Source: Methanosarcina mazei S-6
GTDB taxonomy: Archaea > Halobacteriota > Methanosarcinia > Methanosarcinales > Methanosarcinaceae
Assembly (NCBI RefSeq): GCF_000970205.1
Contig: NZ_CP009512.1
Location: forward strand, 1-64,000
Length of the DNA stretch: 64,000 bases
Direction of reading: 5' to 3'
The position numbers were made by a program, and so were the translations under genes. Each line of letters opens with the position of its first letter. Within the stretch, counting starts at the first letter, position 1. Positions 7,100 to 21,565 of the stretch are shown one piece after another. Below the pieces are notes generated by a model. That model did not search any database. It saw nothing but the letters and a program-made list of their open reading frames with translations, and was not told where the DNA came from.

Positions 7100-8772
7100 C
7101 AGGTAGTCTCAAAACCATTTTTAATTCTACAATTGGGTAATGCCCTTTCAATTTTTATTTCATTTCAACAAGAAAAAGTAAATTTTCATAGCTCAACATA
7201 GCGTATTTGTCATTCTTGCTTGAATTCTCCTCTTATTCCATCCTTTACTTTCTCCTCCAACTATCATTTTCAGCATTTCTTTCAGGTTTTTCCCTTGTCT
7301 TTTTATGAAATCTGCTATTTTCTTTATATTGTGTACGGTACATATCATAACAAATTCAATTCCTGTTTTCCTTATTCCTCTCAACAGAAATTCCCTAAAC
7401 CCTCTATCCTGTTTCATTTGACCAAACACAGGTTCTACGGTAGACATTCTTTTCTGATACTTTTCCGTACCTTTTTCTGTGTTCAGTTTAGCCCTCATAT
7501 CCTCCATTAAATGTTCTCGAGGATCTCTTGTAATCGTCCTTTTTCCACTCTCAGTACATGCATTTTTCAACACACACTGAGAACAATAACTACAGACATA
7601 ATACCTTAAATCAGGTTCACCTTTCCTCTTTTGTATTCTTGAAAAGGGAATTTCAAAAGCAGCAGGACAATAATAGCAGTCTTTTTCTTCGTCGTATTTA
7701 AAAAGAGACTTTCTGAACTTCCTGGTTTTTCCTTCTTTTTCAGCTTTATAGAAGTTGTCAGGAATATAAGCATCAATTCCTTCTTTCTGTAAAAATTCCA
7801 GATTCTCATATGAAAAATAACCTGCATCTGCAAGCACGATTGTTGGTTTATATCCCAGTGTATTTTTTACATTCTGTATCATTGGTTCTACTTGATGCAG
7901 GTCGTTTTCTTCGTTGACAACGTCTGCTGCAACGATAATTTGTTCCTTTTCGTCAACAGCAACCTGACAGTTGTATGAAGGTTTCTTGCTCCCATCTTTA
8001 TATTTCATAATTCGAGCATCGTTGTCTGTGATGTTTACTTTTTTCAGCTTTTCTTCATCAAGCTTCTTCTTAGCGTTTTTAATCTTCTCTAATCTTTTCT
8101 TCTTGTCAACTAGCTCTTCTGGAATCTGATATGGTGTTGAGTCACCATAAATTTCATCTTCATACTTATCTGTCTCAATACTCTCTTTTAGTATCCGATC
8201 TATTTCTTTTTCGAGAGAATCCGAACTCTTGCTTTGTCTTGATGAAGCATTTGCCTTGATCTTTGTTCCGTCAATCGAGATACTGGAACCAATCATATCC
8301 ATTTCTTTACAAAAAGTGACAACCTGGGAAAATATCTCTTTAATAGGACCAAGGTGAGTTGAACGGAATCGACAAATAGTATGAAAATCAGGTTTTTGCA
8401 TGGCTGCCAGATACATAAATGCAGTATCAGTTTGAGTCATTTGTTGCAGTTTACGTGAACTTCTAATGCCTATAAGATAACCATAAAGTAATATTTTTAA
8501 AAGAATTATTGGATGATAGGCTGGGCAGCCTTCCTTAGAATAAGTGGATTCAATAGCAGTGATATCAACGACATCTACGATGTCGTTTAGTACTCGGGCG
8601 AGATGATTTTCAGGAACAAAATCTTCCAGGTTTAATGGAAGTAAAAACTGCTGCTTTTGATCGTATTTTCTAAACATGGGAAACACTGGAATTTAGTTTT
8701 GTAAAAAAGATAAAGATTACGGGTTTCTGACCCAAATGTGCGATCAGGTATAGTTTTGAGACAACCTGGAAA
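7096..8772. mobile_element. complete IS1182-family insertion sequence
   Basis: The terminal inverted repeats are caggtagtctcaaaac (7100-7115) and gttttgagacaacctg (8753-8768), matching at 15 of 16 positions. The element is about 1.67 kb and is flanked by the 4-bp direct repeat gaaa (7096-7099 and 8769-8772), consistent with the short target duplications of this family. One full-length transposase fills it. Intact ends, duplication and reading frame suggest a recent insertion. It landed 28 bp beyond the stop codon of the RNA ligase gene. Confidence 0.88.
7193..8686 (-). CDS. IS1182-family DDE transposase
   Basis: This 497-residue transposase has the family N-terminus (LLPLNLEDFVPENHLAR), a helix-turn-helix-like region, and candidate catalytic DDE residues in SISIDGTKIKANAS (D), IVLADAGYFSYEN (D) and STVEPVFGQMKQDRGFREF (E). 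A Cys-rich insert (YYCPAA, CSYCSQC) precedes the last acidic residue, as in other members. No frameshift or internal stop is visible, so it could be active. Confidence 0.92.
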   Translation of the reverse strand: MFPMFRKYDQKQQFLLPLNLEDFVPENHLARVLNDIVDVVDITAIESTYSKEGCPAYHPIILLKILLYGYLIGIRSSRKLQQMTQTDTAFMYLAAMQKPDFHTICRFRSTHLGPIKEIFSQVVTFCKEMDMIGSSISIDGTKIKANASSRQSKSSDSLEKEIDRILKESIETDKYEDEIYGDSTPYQIPEELVDKKKRLEKIKNAKKKLDEEKLKKVNITDNDARIMKYKDGSKKPSYNCQVAVDEKEQIIVAADVVNEENDLHQVEPMIQNVKNTLGYKPTIVLADAGYFSYENLEFLQKEGIDAYIPDNFYKAEKEGKTRKFRKSLFKYDEEKDCYYCPAAFEIPFSRIQKRKGEPDLRYYVCSYCSQCVLKNACTESGKRTITRDPREHLMEDMRAKLNTEKGTEKYQKRMSTVEPVFGQMKQDRGFREFLLRGIRKTGIEFVMICTVHNIKKIADFIKRQGKNLKEMLKMIVGGESKGWNKRRIQARMTNTLC

Positions 8773-11142: not shown

Positions 11143-12233
<1,091 letters not shown>

Positions 12234-13079
12234 TCAGAGTACAGCTTTCATGATATCGGTTCTGCTAAGCATTCCTATTATATCTTCACCATCACTGACA
12301 GGAAGAGCGTTTATCCCTTCTTCAATCAGTTTTTTTGCAGCATTGCTAATTTTCTCGTTCACATCTATGGACATTATTGGAGAAATCATAATGTCTTCTG
12401 CTATTAAAGGCACTTCTTTTACATACCTGTAAGTTTTCTGACCTGCAGGAGAAGACTTCCGCGTCATCTTAATACTTTTTGTTGAAAGTTTGCCTTCATT
12501 ATCAGTTAACAGGTTTAAGGCAAGGCTTCTCCTTGAAACCAACCCAACCGGTTTTCCTGCATCATCTTTAACGATTACCCGTTCAATTTCATTTTTATTC
12601 AGTTCGTCTATAACGTGGTTGATTGTGTGGTGCCTGTGAACAGAAACAATATCCTCGGTCATCAGCCTGGGAATTTTAGTTTCTATTTCGTCTGCGTGTT
12701 CAGCAACATAACGCACAATATCTGTCCTGGTGATAATACCCACAACATCGTTTTTTACCACAGGAATGTTATGTACTCCGTTCTCAAGCATCAACGTCAC
12801 TGCCTGGGAAATGGAGGCCTCGGGATAGATAGTGATTACGGACTCTGTCATCAGCAACTTTATAGGAATCTGGTCTATCGGCCGTCTCCTCCAGAGAGGT
12901 TCTGCCTGAGCCAGACGGTTGGTGATGTCTGTTTTCGTGACGATTCCCACCATTTTGCCCTCGTTCAGGACAAGCAATGTACTGATTCTGTGTCTTAACA
13001 TCAGATTTCTTGCATGTGACACGGGTTCATCTATGTTTATAACGTACACAGGTGAACTCATGATGTCCGCCACATTCAT
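12234..13079 (-). CDS. CBS-domain protein 2 (four CBS motifs)
   Basis: This 281-residue protein has four CBS repeats: [63 protein letters not shown] and [22 protein letters not shown] basic linker ([19 protein letters not shown]) lies before the last repeat. A full aggaggt site precedes the ATG at 13079. It is likely a cytosolic nucleotide sensor or partner-binding regulator with no attached catalytic domain. Confidence 0.9.
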
Positions 13080-13593
13080 TAAATACCTCCTTCACTTTTA
13101 CAATATATAAGTATTAATAATTATAGTTTTTGAATGAAGTTGAACTTTGTAATCCTTGTTACAAACATTCCTTTTGATTCCAATGTTTTGTCAGCATCTG
13201 CCGTATTTTTTAATTTATATGACCTGACCCATCTATGCTTCATGGGGTTACAGGCTGATAGAAAAATATCTTGGTTGAAGGCAAATTCTAAGACCAGCTA
13301 CGCTCCAGGATACAGATATATCCAGAATATGGAATTTATTCTGGTCTGTCCAGCTAAAAATTTTCCTCCCTGCGATCTTTATTGAAGTTTTACCCGGATC
13401 CTTTTTTATTAAACTTCCAGGTTAATTCTGGCTAAAGGTTAATTCTGGCTAAAGGTTAATTCTGGCTTATCGGTTATGGTTCATTTTAGCAGAAGTTTTA
13501 ACAGAAATTTTCTGTTTTTACCAAGCTATCAGGTTCGACACACACCTTTTCCTGTTCGCTGGAATTTTCATTTGAGCCTGGTCAAAACTCCCG
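13080..13593. other. intergenic region, 0.5 kb, between CBS genes 2 and 3
   Basis: No supported gene. A direct repeat of gctaaaggttaattctg occurs around 13431-13467, within a pyrimidine-rich spacer. Confidence 0.45.
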
Positions 13594-14490
13594 TTAAAAG
13601 TCAAAACCTCTCAGGAAATCGCTCTCCGTAATAATACCACGTAGCATTCCCTCTTCCAGAATCGGAAGCGAACCTATCTTTTTCTCGAGCATAATTTCCA
13701 TAGCCTTCCCCATATCTGTGCCAGGGCTGGTCCAGATCAGTTCTTTTGAGATAATAGAGCCTACAGGCTGGTCCAGAGCTTCATGAATATTCCCTGTTGT
13801 GAGTTTGCTGAATGCATCTCCTTTTCCCATGAAATGAACGATATCCGAGGCGGTAACTATTCCTGCAAAGATCCCGTCTTTTACCACGGGAAGCCTTCGG
13901 AATCTATTCTGCACCATGACTTTTGCAGCCTGCCCTATAGTAGTATCTGTCGTTACCATTGTGACATTTTTAGTCATATACTCATCAACAGTTTTATTTG
14001 TCACAAGCCCGGCCATTAATTCTACGGCATTTCTTTCGGTAAAGATTGCGACGACCTGCATTTCACTGTTTACTATAGGCAGGCCACCGGTCCTCCTTTC
14101 AAGCATTGTTTTGACGGCTTCTTTAAAGTCTGCCTGATCATGGATGTATGCAGCATTGGTATCCATGATCTGCCGTACCTCTTCGTTTATTGCAGCTAGA
14201 AGGTTGCCTTTAAAACGGTTTGTGACAAGGAGATTCCTGCTGCCGCCTCCCAGGAAATCAATGATATCAACAGAAGTAATTACTCCTTCCAGCCTCCCTG
14301 TTCCTGCATTTGTAATAGGAATACGCCTGAATCTCCTTTCAGTCATAATTTTTATTGCTTCCATAATGGTTGCAGTAGGAGGGAGTGTTACCACATTTCT
14401 TGTTGCCAGGGCAAGAATTTTCCCCTCATGTTCTGAAATTCGGGACTTAAAATCAGGGCCAATTCTCATTGTACCCCTGCTGCTGACCAT
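13594..14490 (-). CDS. CBS-domain protein 3 (four CBS motifs)
   Basis: Four CBS repeats are visible: [51 protein letters not shown] and [15 protein letters not shown], with [13 protein letters not shown] at the C-terminus. The start is uncertain. ATG 14490 is preferred because agaagga lies 7 nt upstream, giving 299 residues. ATG 14469 follows aggggt closely, while GTG 14595 and ATG 14550 lack a ribosome site but would add a basic, Ser/Lys/Gln-rich leader. It is part of the five-gene CBS array. Confidence 0.85.
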
Positions 14491-14851
14491 ATGTGGGTCC
14501 TTCTGCTGCGACTTTTTGCTTGACTTGTTCAGATTTGGCTGAACATTCATTTTTTCGACTGGTACAAATGTCTTATTTTTGCTCAATAGGATCACCGAAT
14601 CGAGTTGCAGTTAATTGCTTTTTTCATCTTCCGTTTTTACTCTACCTGCATATTAGCAGGAACTTTCCTGAGGATCCAATTACAACCTCAGGACCGTAGA
14701 CAGCGTCGGAGACAGACAAAGCCTTAAAGCAATCTTCTCTCGAATCTTTTCTAACACTTACTCTTGTTTTCCAATCTGTAATCTTTATTATTTATAATCT
14801 TTAATCGTTATAATGCTTTTGCGCGAAACCTACTTTCTATATTTTTCAGGA

Positions 14852-15646
14852 TTATTCACTCCAGCCTTTAACAACAGACTCCAGAAGATCCTGTCTGTCA
14901 GCGATTCCGGATATTTTACCCTGTTCATTCACAACAGTAATTCTTCCTATATCACGCTGAACAATTATGTCAATTGCACTTTTTATTGAATCATTCTCCG
15001 ATAAAGTATAAGCAGGAGTTGACATAATCTTCTCAACTTTGGGACTTTCGTTCGGTCTTGTTGCCCGCTCGTCTTCTATAGCCATTCTTAAAGCGCCTGA
15101 CTTAATTATGTCCCTTCTTGTTATCATCCCAATGGGATCCCCTTTCTTTGAAACTACCGGAATGCCGGTATAATCCGTTTCTATCATATAATTCCAGACT
15201 TTTGATACCCTTTCATCTGGAGAACAGGTCTTGACTTTTTTTGTCATGATAGCTTCTATGGTTTTCGAAATATTTCTGGGGAGTTCCACATTTCTGAGAA
15301 TATCCACATCACTGAGAATTCCAACAACCGTGCGGTCTGTTGTTGATTTGACAACCGGAACTCTGTTCTGTTTCGATTGTACCATTAATTTTGCAGCTTT
15401 TACGAGATCCATGTCCGGAGTGATGGTAGGAGACTGCCTCGCATATCCGCTCACTGTCACATTTGAACGTGTGGATGTAACATTCATGATGTCCTGGTCG
15501 TTTAACATTCCTACGAGCCTGTTTCCCTCATCCACGACAACAATACCCCGAAAGAAGTAATCACGCATCAGCTGGCGGGCGTGAGTTACAAAATCCCCTT
15601 CTTTGATACTTACGGGCTCTTCTGTCATAATCTCGCTGACATTCAT
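14852..15646 (-). CDS. CBS-domain protein 4 (four CBS motifs)
   Basis: This 264-residue protein has four CBS repeats starting [61 protein letters not shown] and [20 protein letters not shown]. The start at 15646 follows aggagaggaag. It begins 86 nt downstream of CBS gene 5, so the two are probably co-transcribed. No catalytic domain is present. Confidence 0.9.
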
Positions 15647-15732
15647 TGTTTATCTTCCTCTCCTTATTAAAACAGAAAATTGACAGTCAAGATTTCAAGC
15701 TTACAATTCACTCGTGATTGCGGTTTAATGAT

Positions 15733-16368
15733 TCATTCGTAATCCTCTCCTTCCTCCTGCCTGCAGTTCCCGCATAAGTACCTCCCGTCAACAAACCTGA
15801 GGTCATATGAGAAAACATTGCAAGACTCACATACTCCAGTACTGAAGTCTTCTGATTCCGATATTTCTTCAGCTGAAGGGGTTGAGAAAAGAGCTTCTCT
15901 ATTCATATCAATAAGATCTTTGAGAATCGTATTGAGACCTGGAGTTATCATCAGGATATCTGTATTCGAAATCACCCCTATGATTGCCCCGTTTTCCAGG
16001 ACTGGCAGCCTCTTAACATTTGCTCTCAACATCATTTTCGCAGCTTCAACTATACTGGTCGTGGGGTCGACAGTAAGTAAAGGAGTGGAAAGGATTTCAC
16101 TTGTGTCCACTTCACTTGGTTTTCTGTCCCCGGCAATGACGCTCTTCACAAGGTCTCTTTCAGTTATAATCCCCATTGCCTTTCCGTTTTCTGTGATAAT
16201 AACGCTTCCTGCATCACGATCTACCATTTCCTTTGCAATAGCAGGAATATCTGAATTAATATCCATTGTTATAACTGCTTTATTCATAATTTCTGCAACT
16301 GAGACCTCCCTCTCAATTTCTCTGTTGTGAATACCAGTAACTGTTTCCCTTTCAGGGTCTTGTACCAT
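15733..16368 (-). CDS. CBS-pair protein with C-terminal zinc ribbon
   Basis: This 211-residue protein has one CBS pair (VAEIMNKAVITMDINSDIPAI, then TSEILSTPLLTVDPTTSIVEA) followed by a small C-terminal zinc ribbon with two Cys pairs, CESC and CGNC. It is the only member of the local CBS array with this appendage, which could bind nucleic acid or protein. ATG 16368 follows aaaggggg about 12 nt upstream. A minus-strand TATA-like tatatatta lies near 16613-16621, leaving a leader of about 200 nt. It is the first gene of the likely CBS5-CBS4 transcript. Confidence 0.88.
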   Translation of the reverse strand: MVQDPERETVTGIHNREIEREVSVAEIMNKAVITMDINSDIPAIAKEMVDRDAGSVIITENGKAMGIITERDLVKSVIAGDRKPSEVDTSEILSTPLLTVDPTTSIVEAAKMMLRANVKRLPVLENGAIIGVISNTDILMITPGLNTILKDLIDMNREALFSTPSAEEISESEDFSTGVCESCNVFSYDLRFVDGRYLCGNCRQEEGEDYE

Positions 16369-16765
16369 TGGCTGCAGTTCCCCCTTTACCTGTTCAGCAC
16401 CCAGAACCGATAAATCCTCTCTTTAAAGCCCTTCCAGGTTTTCAATTTCCTGTGGAAAATACTTCCAGATTCTTTTAAACTTCCCCATTTGTTACTTTTC
16501 TGGAAGGAATCCTGAAAAATTGGTTATCGGTAAAATCCTTCTTTTAAGTATCTTTCCGGTTTTTTCCTGTAAATCTCTTTCCCGCACTTCTGAGACCTTT
16601 TTATGACACTTAATATATACGAGTCAATGGTACATAATGATAACGGCATTCCTTTTTAGCATGATCTAAATTTTCCTCTAAGACGGCGCTGAGTCTCTTT
16701 TTTAAGGTTGAGATTTATGTCTTCTTTAAGCGCAATTTCTTAAAGTCAGTCAGGAATTTTTTAAT

Positions 16766-16788
16766 AACCCCCTTATTTCCACTGGAGA
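16766..16788 (-). promoter_or_regulatory. ORB-like box A
   Basis: The minus strand reads tccagtggaaataaggggg, almost the same as the ORB at 21-39 (tccagtggaaacaaagggg). It lies in non-coding DNA upstream of the CBS operon and downstream of rpa1. Confidence 0.6.
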
Positions 16789-16942
16789 TTTTTGCTCAGA
16801 ATGAAAAATATCGAGTCATGTAGAAAAAATATTAGGGGGAAGTAGCAGGTGGGAAATATTCTTTTTTAAAAATTGTTAAAAAGAATAAAACATTCTTAAT
16901 TATATTTAGAACGCTATTGATTTTTCTCACAGGAAATCTTTC

Positions 16943-16966
16943 TAACCCCTATATTTCTACTGGAAT
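16943..16966 (-). promoter_or_regulatory. ORB-like box B
   Basis: The minus strand reads ttccagtagaaatataggggt, in the same orientation as box A and about 177 bp from it. It deviates at one dyad base (A for G) and in the linker before the G-string. Confidence 0.5.
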
Positions 16967-17245
16967 TTACTTTTTTACTTTTTTGCTTGTATTTATTTGA
17001 GTGTAAATTTGCAAATATCTTTTGAAAAATACAAAAAATCCTGAAGGGATTAGCCGAAAATAAGTATGTTAGTATAAGGTGAAAATAATTGACATCTTGA
17101 CAAATTCAGTAAATTCAGACAAAAACATAATGTAAAAATCTGGATAGAATCCAATGCTCCTCCAGCAAAATATAAGTATAAAAATTAAAAGCTGTAAAAG
17201 CTCAATGTTAAATAAATATATAAAGTAAAAGTCAATGTATAGTGA

Positions 17246-17385
17246 AAATAAACAGATGAATAGAAAACAGATGAATCGGCGGAGAATAAAATTAAATAAC
17301 AAATAAGATAAAAATAAAATCAGGCGAAATCGAAAACAGATGAAATAGATAGAGTATATAATAGATAACAAATAAGATAAAAACA
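17246..17385. repeat. interrupted direct repeats of about 70 bp period
   Basis: gaaaacagatgaa and taacaaataagataaaaa each occur twice in the same order (first around 17264-17311, again around 17331-17383). They are AT-rich and non-coding. Confidence 0.6.
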
Positions 17386-17526
17386 CACATGATATTCTTC
17401 GAATAACATGCCCAAAAAATGAAAGTACTTGAGAGCACTTTCATGCCAAATAAAAGCAGAAAGTGAGTAAGCAGGAAAGAAATAAAGTGATGAGAAAGCT
17501 TTAATAAACAGAAAACAGGGGAATGA

Positions 17527-18981
17527 TCAGAGGATAATCAGTCTACTCCTGTTTCCAACACTCAGTTCTATTTCTTCGTTCAGCCCGTACCTGGCATAAG
17601 CATCGATGATCTGGATTTCGGAATCTATGTCAAGGTCTTCTATCACATATGCCTGTTCTCCCCAGAGTGTCAGTCGGATGCTGCCTGTATCGTCTTTAAG
17701 CTGGAGATTTGCAACAACATTTTCGGTTCCGTCTTCTTTTTCAAATTCTCTGAGCTCTCCAATCTCAGCAACTTTTCCCTGTACAGAATAGCTTTCTCCG
17801 GGGATGATATCGGCTATATCGGTAAATTTCTCCCTGTACTCGACCTTCTTTTCGCTTCTCTGAATTATTCCTCTGGCTCCAAGGTTGAGTTCAACCTGCT
17901 GGCTGAAAGTATTTTCCCGCGAATAAGCGTTAAGGACTTCAACTGTTTCATCAAAGTCAATTTCTTCAAGAATATCAGTTTTTTCATCCCATAGCGTCAG
18001 TCTTATTTTGCCTGTAGAATCGCCCAGAAGGACATTTCCTACTCTCCCAGTGGATCCATCTTTTTTCTCGAAAGTCCTGACTTCCGAGATATCAAGGATC
18101 CTTCCTGAGATATTTATATTATTCATATCAGCTTTTATATCATCAATAGGAGTAAATTCTTCTTCGTATTCAATTTTCTTTTCACTTTTCCTGATTATAC
18201 TCCTGTTTCCTACCTGCAACTCTACTTTCTGGCTAAAGGCATTTTCGCGGGCATAAGCATTAATCAGCTCTATACTATCCCCATATTCAACCTGGCTTAA
18301 AAAATCAGTTTTGTCATCCCAGAGTGTTACCCTGAGCGTACCTGTTTCGTCTCCCAGCATCAGGTTTCCTACCCTCCCGCTGTTCCCGTCTTTTCTCTGG
18401 AATGTCCTGATCTCGGAGACTTCCAGTACCTTTCCGTTAAGGTTGATGTCTCCCATGCCATCCTTTATATCCTTTATTTTATAACTATTTGAAACAACAT
18501 CGATCTCTTCCTCACTTTCTGTCAGGACTCCATTGTTACCAATATTAACTTCCACTCCGGAATATCCCTGCTTTGCGAATCCACTGACCTGAACGGATTG
18601 CCCTGCCTTTATTTTTCCCATTTTAATAAGGTCTGCCATATTGTCCCACAGGGTTAACTTTACTTTTCCGGTCTCATCCCCAACAATAAGGTTTCCTACC
18701 CTTCCTATAGTCCCGTCATTCCTTGTGAATTCTTTGGTATCGAAAACAGAAATAATTCTTGCAATAAAGTTAACAGGTCCGCTTTCGGGGGTAATGTTTT
18801 CTATCTTTATGCTATCTCTGCCTGCATCCGAGAATCCCAGCTCATTGGCTACCAGCATGGCAGCCATTGTCTCATCACAGAGCCCTCCCATATTCTCTAC
18901 TTTTTCCTGTATGCGCTGCAGGAAATCCTCTTTACTTATGACGTGGCTGAGCTTCTTATAAATAGTTTCAATATCGGTCAT
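17527..18981 (-). CDS. rpa1: replication protein A with four OB folds (RPA1 type)
   Basis: This 484-residue single-stranded DNA-binding protein has four successive OB folds, each with the recurring F.(R/K).DG..GRVGN(L/V)..GDETGK.(K/R)LTLWD pattern near residues 80-120, 190-225, 290-330 and 400-440. Length and architecture match the four-OB RPA1 described in Methanosarcina. It coats single-stranded DNA during replication and repair. Repeats 2 and 3 are especially similar, suggesting internal duplication. It sits beside the ORB-like gap. Confidence 0.92.
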   Translation of the reverse strand: MTDIETIYKKLSHVISKEDFLQRIQEKVENMGGLCDETMAAMLVANELGFSDAGRDSIKIENITPESGPVNFIARIISVFDTKEFTRNDGTIGRVGNLIVGDETGKVKLTLWDNMADLIKMGKIKAGQSVQVSGFAKQGYSGVEVNIGNNGVLTESEEEIDVVSNSYKIKDIKDGMGDINLNGKVLEVSEIRTFQRKDGNSGRVGNLMLGDETGTLRVTLWDDKTDFLSQVEYGDSIELINAYARENAFSQKVELQVGNRSIIRKSEKKIEYEEEFTPIDDIKADMNNINISGRILDISEVRTFEKKDGSTGRVGNVLLGDSTGKIRLTLWDEKTDILEEIDFDETVEVLNAYSRENTFSQQVELNLGARGIIQRSEKKVEYREKFTDIADIIPGESYSVQGKVAEIGELREFEKEDGTENVVANLQLKDDTGSIRLTLWGEQAYVIEDLDIDSEIQIIDAYARYGLNEEIELSVGNRSRLIIL

Positions 18982-20506: not shown

Positions 20507-21565
20507 TCAGCCTACAGATACTTCAAAAAGGCCTTCCTTTTCCTTTATTTTGAACTTCACATCCAGAAACTGTTCTGTCACCCAGATATTAGTCGCAGCA
20601 TGCAGGGTCAGCTCACGGACAGTAAAGGAACTGTTGCCAGCAAGTGCCATATAGGGAATTAACTGGTCTGCCAGATGAATGTCCACAGCAGCTCCTGCCC
20701 TGAGTTCTTTAATAACTTCTTCCGCAGCTTGCCTGCCTACTTTTTCAGCAGGCAGCCCCTTTTTTCCAAGGGCACTTCCCCCGCAATAGCCCTTCCAGAG
20801 AGTTATTCCGCTTCCTGTGGAGAAAAATTCGGAGGAACTGACATCTATCCGGGCATCATATCCGGCTTCAAGAAACAGGGACCTTGCAGATTCAGCCTGG
20901 CGGGCCGGTACATGTGCAGGAAGGTTAGATGCGTGTGAAACTCCAATAATTTCTTCCATCATGCTTTTTTCTCCCTTCAAACCTTCTCCCACCGGGTTAC
21001 TTTCTGTTTTTTTATTTCCTTCAGTTTTCCTGAAATGAAAACCATGAAGTTTACAGGGCTCAAAAACAGCTGAAACACTTCCTCCGCCTCTCGGATAGTA
21101 GCCGCGCTCTTTCAGGGTTACGCTGCCCGCATATCCAAATTGTTCAAGTGCCCTGAGGGTTACATGCTTCAGGTAGTCGATTGTCGGAGACCATGCAACG
21201 TCAGTCCCGCCTCTGATTGTTAACTCTACCTTTTCTTCTACAAAAGGCAGGGCTGGCATAATGCATTGCAAAAGCAAGGTTATGCTCCCCGCGGTCCCGA
21301 TATCAATATTATACTTTCCCCCCTTTATTTCCACTGGAGCAAAAAATAATTCCGAGGAGCCCTGAGAAAGCCCTGAAACCCGTGCCCCACAAATCTTTGC
21401 TGCAGTTTCCAGAGCTTTAAGGTGTTGCTGTTTCAGGCCCGGATTTGGCCTGTTTTCTCTTATATTCGTAACTTTTATTTCTTCCCCTGTAACTGCAGAA
21501 AGGGCAACAGCAGTTCTGACTAACTGCCCACCTCCTTCCCCGTAAGAACCGTCTATTTCTATCAT
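20507..21565 (-). CDS. rtcA: RNA 3'-terminal phosphate cyclase RtcA
   Basis: This 352-residue enzyme converts RNA 3'-phosphate to a 2',3'-cyclic phosphate through an RNA-adenylate step. N-terminal DGSYGEGGGQLVRTAVALS and RPNPGLKQQHL, central DIGTAGSITLLLQ, and the C-terminal HLADQLIPYMAL histidine (the adenylated residue in characterised cyclases) are all present. The insert around residues 180-210 is Lys/Glu-rich. The ORB-like sequence at 21318-21340 lies inside the coding region. Stop codons of rtcA and kptA face each other 114 nt apart. Confidence 0.95.
   Translation of the reverse strand: MIEIDGSYGEGGGQLVRTAVALSAVTGEEIKVTNIRENRPNPGLKQQHLKALETAAKICGARVSGLSQGSSELFFAPVEIKGGKYNIDIGTAGSITLLLQCIMPALPFVEEKVELTIRGGTDVAWSPTIDYLKHVTLRALEQFGYAGSVTLKERGYYPRGGGSVSAVFEPCKLHGFHFRKTEGNKKTESNPVGEGLKGEKSMMEEIIGVSHASNLPAHVPARQAESARSLFLEAGYDARIDVSSSEFFSTGSGITLWKGYCGGSALGKKGLPAEKVGRQAAEEVIKELRAGAAVDIHLADQLIPYMALAGNSSFTVRELTLHAATNIWVTEQFLDVKFKIKEKEGLFEVSVG
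21318..21340 (-). promoter_or_regulatory. ORB-like sequence inside rtcA
   Basis: The minus strand reads tccagtggaaataaagggg, differing from the ORB at 21-39 by one base. It encodes part of A-P-V-E-I-K-G-G in rtcA, so it may be coincidental. Confidence 0.3.

Follow-up and report, generated by a model that had tools for sequence, protein, structure and literature searches.

In bacteria, initiator boxes that lie outside oriC, such as datA, DARS and clusters of DnaA boxes, are found at conserved chromosomal places and control initiation. Little is settled about how initiation is kept in check in archaea that have one Orc1-dependent origin. In archaeal origins of the oriC1 type, ORBs, the boxes bound by Orc1/Cdc6 proteins of the Orc1-1 type, are inverted and flank an unwinding element (DUE). 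The ORB-rich region oriC2D of Haloarcula hispanica, in which 11 ORBs lie directly downstream of their own cdc6 gene, was proposed to titrate Cdc6E, and ORB-mediated negative control was described in the same study, which also mentions datA (PMC3936714). The main published model of ORBs as negative regulators rests on one haloarchaeal origin. For Methanosarcina mazei, a single origin has been published on the basis of Z-curve analysis (PMC4164010, PMC5333045), and it was never experimentally validated (PMC5333045).

We analyzed the chromosome of M. mazei, a single contig of 4,142,816 bp, and in particular its first 64 kb, hereafter the window (Table 1). By rpa1, its named neighbors are Methanosarcina, with protein identities reaching 91%. 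The AT-rich gap between rpa1 and a CBS-domain gene contains two 21-bp boxes, A and B, as the original prediction had claimed; they are direct repeats, 178 bp apart from start to start, and the AT content of the gap peaks locally at 87% over 60 bp. Their likeness to the ORB upstream of orc1 was also borne out, with three mismatches each to this reference site. A third box, ~4.5 kb beyond the pair and inside rtcA, had been missed by the prediction, and all three are located within 4.6 kb. The boxes share TCCA-GT-GAAA-GGGGT with the archaeal ORB, the G-string included in both A and B, and resemble the boxes of the cell's own oriC; unlike classical ORBs, they do not flank an unwinding element but lie 17–21 kb away from both orc1 and the origin, either as direct repeats or within a gene. 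Judged from its sequence, Orc1 is clearly orthologous to Orc1-1 proteins of crenarchaea whose structures have been solved, and it is therefore reasonable to expect that the Orc1 encoded in the window would bind these boxes. The only other Cdc6 gene of the chromosome, a divergent one at 4057226-4057414 (4.057 Mb), has no ORB match nearby.

Table 1 Positions of the boxes, neighboring elements and genes on the M. mazei chromosome.
Feature	Position	Strand	Sequence	Remarks
ORB box A	16945-16965	minus	TTCCAGTAGAAATATAGGGGT	Copy nearer rpa1; from motif scans and conservation in orthologous gaps
ORB box B	16767-16787	minus	CTCCAGTGGAAATAAGGGGGT	Orientation as box A; from motif scans and conserved spacing
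Element after box A	16914-16939	minus	AGATTTCCTGTGAGAAAAATCAATAG	From footprint alignment
Related element after box B	16741-16766	minus	TATTAAAAAATTCCTG	TTCCTG begins 31 bp from box start
Conserved block	16596-16647	minus	GCCGTTATCATTATGTACCATTGACTCGTATATATTAAG	From footprint alignment; unique in genome
Intergenic gap with boxes A and B	16369-17526			1158 bp, 69% AT
CBS-domain gene	15733-16368	minus		Downstream of gap; Pfam CBS
rpa1 (OB-fold RPA-like protein)	17527-18981	minus		3' end toward gap
Third ORB	21319-21339	minus	CTCCAGTGGAAATAAAGGGGG	Inside rtcA, codons 75-82
rtcA (RNA 3'-terminal phosphate cyclase)	20507-21565	minus		Pfam RTC
orc1 (Orc1-1 type initiator)	620-1864	plus		Pfam Cdc6_C and lid; best PDB matches 2qby_A, 2v1u_A
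orc1-proximal ORB of predicted origin	20-40	plus		Reference site
Second ORB cluster	Boxes 3774240, 3774590; region ~3773719-3774775			Between aroA'-type aldolase gene and radical-SAM gene
Other genomic ORB matches	2380481; 880285			Intergenic singletons; 2380481 upstream of trpC

When the 20-40 box was used as a query, four matches with at most three mismatches were found in the window, against 0.01 expected from shuffled sequences. A pattern scan of the whole genome detected 10 sites with at most two mismatches and none with the reversed control; with at most three mismatches the numbers were 16 and 4, respectively. Since this local pattern, to which boxes A and B have 0–1 mismatches, was partly shaped by the boxes themselves, the scan was repeated using the ORB motif that accompanies Ori-Finder 2 for Methanomicrobia (PMC4164010), which is not derived from the window. 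The published motif yielded 10 genome-wide sites with at most two mismatches, boxes A and B among them, versus one for the control. Matches are thus few in the genome and not scattered in abundance, and the chance of two same-strand boxes (at most three mismatches) falling in the gap was estimated at ~5e-6.

The original prediction had offered a second origin as one reading of the gap. The predicted oriC contains an inverted ORB pair at 4139646(-)/4139943(+), between mfnA and a symporter gene, and further boxes next to orc1 at 4142673 and 20. To test for an origin we used strand-corrected third-position AT skew, GC skew being too noisy near the origin. The AT skew had a positive sign across the 200 kb preceding position 1 and a negative one across the following 264 kb, with a single changepoint at -4.0 to +1.5 kb (bootstrap 95%), beside orc1, in agreement with the published Z-curve origin. 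Samples taken round the chromosome displayed the opposite change at ~2.1–2.3 Mb and no change near 3.77 Mb. All 14 genes in 0–17 kb already have the sign of the right arm (sign test p=1e-4), indicating that the 17-kb sites are not dominant origins; it is a dominant origin only that the skew excludes at 17 kb. A weak or dormant second origin would suit an AT-rich gap with two ORBs, and dormant origins known in haloarchaea provide a precedent (PMC4595724); in addition, the skew magnitude in 0–17 kb is slightly lower than further out, a difference that is not significant (p=0.28). Nevertheless, we regard such an origin as improbable, because boxes A and B are direct repeats and not inverted ORBs around an AT-rich unwinding element, no initiator gene adjoins them (orc1 is 15 kb away), strand composition does not switch at them, and the published work describes one origin.

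The boxes are kept in related species, so neither outcome that the original prediction had named as refuting it, abundant scattered matches or a lack of conservation, was observed. In 28 of the 29 orthologous loci with enough sequence, which share ancestry and are not independent, at least two same-strand boxes (at most four mismatches) were detected downstream of rpa1, and the remaining locus has a single box. The spacing in the 28 loci is nearly always 177–180 bp, the exceptions being 168 bp (two loci), 173 bp and 247 bp; one locus has three boxes, of which the last two are 179 bp apart. Spacings between 135 and 247 bp, most often 178 bp, were recorded in the set of named genomes. The columns of the boxes hardly vary in the alignment, and the gap around them averages 59% identity to the window. 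Both boxes also occur in g4 and g5, which are sister genera; a single, weak box was all that g6 showed, and no box was detected in the rpa1-side gap of g7, g9, g10, g11 and g13.

Conservation extends beyond the boxes. AAAAATTTCCTG follows each of them, and the conserved TTCCTG in it begins 30 bp from the box start after box A and at nearly the same distance after box B. This shared placement at ~30–31 bp indicates that A and B are a direct repeat of one composite module of ~45 bp. The element after box A may resemble an ORB half without the G-string, and the stretch is present as a single copy in the genome. An Rfam search over 14–20 kb gave nothing credible; one match below the gathering score was disregarded.

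The box inside rtcA is conserved more widely than the pair, which is found across Methanosarcina and two sister genera, whereas the rtcA box is found across the family. In Methanosarcina and the sister genera, synonymous identity in the 8-codon windows over the box was 0.95 versus a gene mean of 0.57, and in distant genera of the family the same windows reached 0.93 versus 0.43; in both sets, the windows of highest synonymous conservation in rtcA overlap the box. The pattern in the sampled family members is close to xxT-CCA-nnn-GAA-ATA-RRG-GGG. At codons 75, 77 and 80 the encoded residues vary and the bases of the box are kept, and in one genus part of an otherwise conserved glycine pair of RtcA is gone with the Gs retained. 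In three other families of the order, this region of rtcA uses other codons and the box is absent. Furthermore, rtcA is missing from this locus in genus g10, where an ORB still occupies the corresponding interval that separates kptA from a toprim-domain gene; the relocated rtcA-like genes of g10 are without a box. The codon pattern, the families without the box and the intergenic retention in g10 together indicate that the rtcA element is selected as DNA. In principle, the box could be destroyed by synonymous changes that leave the protein unaltered.

These data bear on the view that the boxes have no function and arose by chance or as by-products of coding sequence. Two other conserved matches, one in a GntP-like transporter gene at about -20 kb and one in aroE, do have the look of coding coincidences and were rejected as such. 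For the boxes described here we consider this explanation very hard to sustain, given a pair conserved within a fast-evolving gap, the synonymous conservation in rtcA and a total of 276 pattern matches over 31 genomes of the genus versus 12 for the reversed pattern.

A second ORB cluster was found at 3.774 Mb, downstream of an aroA'-type aldolase gene of the DeoC/LacD family. In 13 of 13 Methanosarcina loci it consists of two or three ORBs in one orientation between convergent genes, each box with its own conserved flanks. Genera g5, g11 and g12 likewise have an ORB immediately after aroA', with a different next gene in g11 and g12. Depending on the species, the cluster lies 0.2–1.8 Mb from the origin. 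We also considered whether boxes are always oriented toward oriC; when the coordinates were checked by eye, several genomes broke this rule at the aroA' cluster.

Position relative to the origin is central to another explanation, in which Orc1 bound to origin-proximal boxes would serve chromosome organization or segregation by anchoring or pairing new origins in a parS-like manner. In every complete Methanosarcina genome checked, the 16.8–21.3 kb cluster lies close to the origin, and its fixed spacing would suit a protein–DNA complex or loop. Such a role appears distinctly unlikely, however, as the aroA' cluster sits remote from the origin and shifts between species.

Orc1-dependent transcription control of rpa1 or of the CBS genes had been proposed in the original prediction as well. 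Control of rpa1 is unlikely, since the gap lies at the 3' end of this gene and its promoter is on the opposite side. At the CBS gene the proposal is partly tenable: Orc1 at A and B could activate or repress the downstream CBS gene cluster and tie it to the replication state. The boxes are located upstream of both the CBS gene and the conserved block at 16596-16647, which is probably the promoter of this gene, judging from a TATA-like sequence, and an AT-rich, TATA-like stretch, AAATATAATT, is present ~40 bp after box A. Outside this gap, the interval that separates the PAN proteasome ATPase gene from a divergently oriented gene contains an ORB in g10, g12 and g13. A review notes reports of extra Cdc6-bound regions in Pyrococcus abyssi and of possible gene-regulatory roles (PMC5333045). 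On the other hand, box B is ~150 bp upstream of the conserved, likely TATA element of the CBS gene, and the intragenic position of the rtcA box and the convergent genes around the aroA' boxes in Methanosarcina mean that promoter control cannot explain all of the conserved sites. Its fit to the gap is least poor at the CBS gene, and we consider it unlikely overall. The highly conserved block, with a TATA-like stretch, GCCGTTATCATTATGTACCATTGACTCGTATATA, may hold a regulator site besides the probable CBS promoter. Five CBS-domain genes stand in a row on the minus strand (11143-16368) and adjoin the gap, and similar rows are found beside rpa1 in other genera.

Of the readings first proposed, an auxiliary Orc1 site is the best supported, with Orc1 binding expected from the sequence of the protein and of the boxes. 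We tentatively favor, at somewhat less than even confidence, the explanation that A and B are genuine Orc1 recognition boxes and, with the rtcA box, form a conserved station outside the origin that holds or modulates Orc1. On this view the initiator would probably dock at conserved sites outside the origin, and the most likely purpose of these would be to regulate Orc1 itself. Initiator-box clusters outside the minimal origin are represented by the pair with the rtcA box and by the second cluster at 3.774 Mb, although the number of boxes is low. Most likely, the boxes would hold part of the cell's limited Orc1. Owing to their proximity to oriC they would be copied soon after initiation, and the competing sites would double and leave less free Orc1 at oriC, in the manner of datA and DnaA-box clusters in bacteria and of the role proposed for oriC2D in Haloarcula; the aroA' cluster might be another such station.

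An archaeal precedent for titration near oriC is provided by oriC2D. In both cases ORBs lie apart from an active origin with no compositional sign of origin activity. In contrast to the 11 ORBs of oriC2D beside their own cdc6 gene, there are two or three boxes per site here, 17 kb to megabases away, and their retention is locus-specific over a genus or family. For a titrator, two or three boxes is a small number, and some genera have single boxes only. Moreover, pure titration would allow the boxes to move, whereas their positions are strictly kept, which hints at a locus-specific role, and for the aroA' station the varying distance from the origin means that timing relative to initiation is not constant. 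Since a locus-specific role is no worse a match to this strict retention of position, we put forward titration or modulation of Orc1 only with the reservation stated above. With datA, DARS and DnaA-box clusters the sites share the presence of initiator boxes outside oriC at conserved chromosomal places; the initiator family is different, and no accessory-factor site was identified here beyond the TTCCTG element.

More broadly, Methanosarcinaceae could possess family-wide, position-locked Orc1 stations outside the origin, one of them within a coding gene where selection on the DNA has shaped the protein. Together these would make up a circuit that controls the initiator by titration, Orc1 resetting or origin tethering, and for which no archaeal counterpart has been described. 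We offer this broader proposal as a speculative one that we doubt more than we believe. A search of the open literature, with most subscription journals outside its reach, found no paper on extra-origin ORBs in Methanosarcina. The sites bear on whether archaea, like bacteria, use initiator reservoirs. They are defined 21-bp sequences that lie outside the origin and are retained across a family whose members include M. acetivorans and M. mazei.

Additional features were observed elsewhere. The singleton upstream of trpC (2380481-2380501) is a near-perfect ORB. Three genomes of g7 have an ORB-like box on the upstream side of a gene for a PaaI-type thioesterase. Within the window, an ORF judged from sequence to be transposase-like (7193-8686) is located between orc1 and the row of CBS genes.
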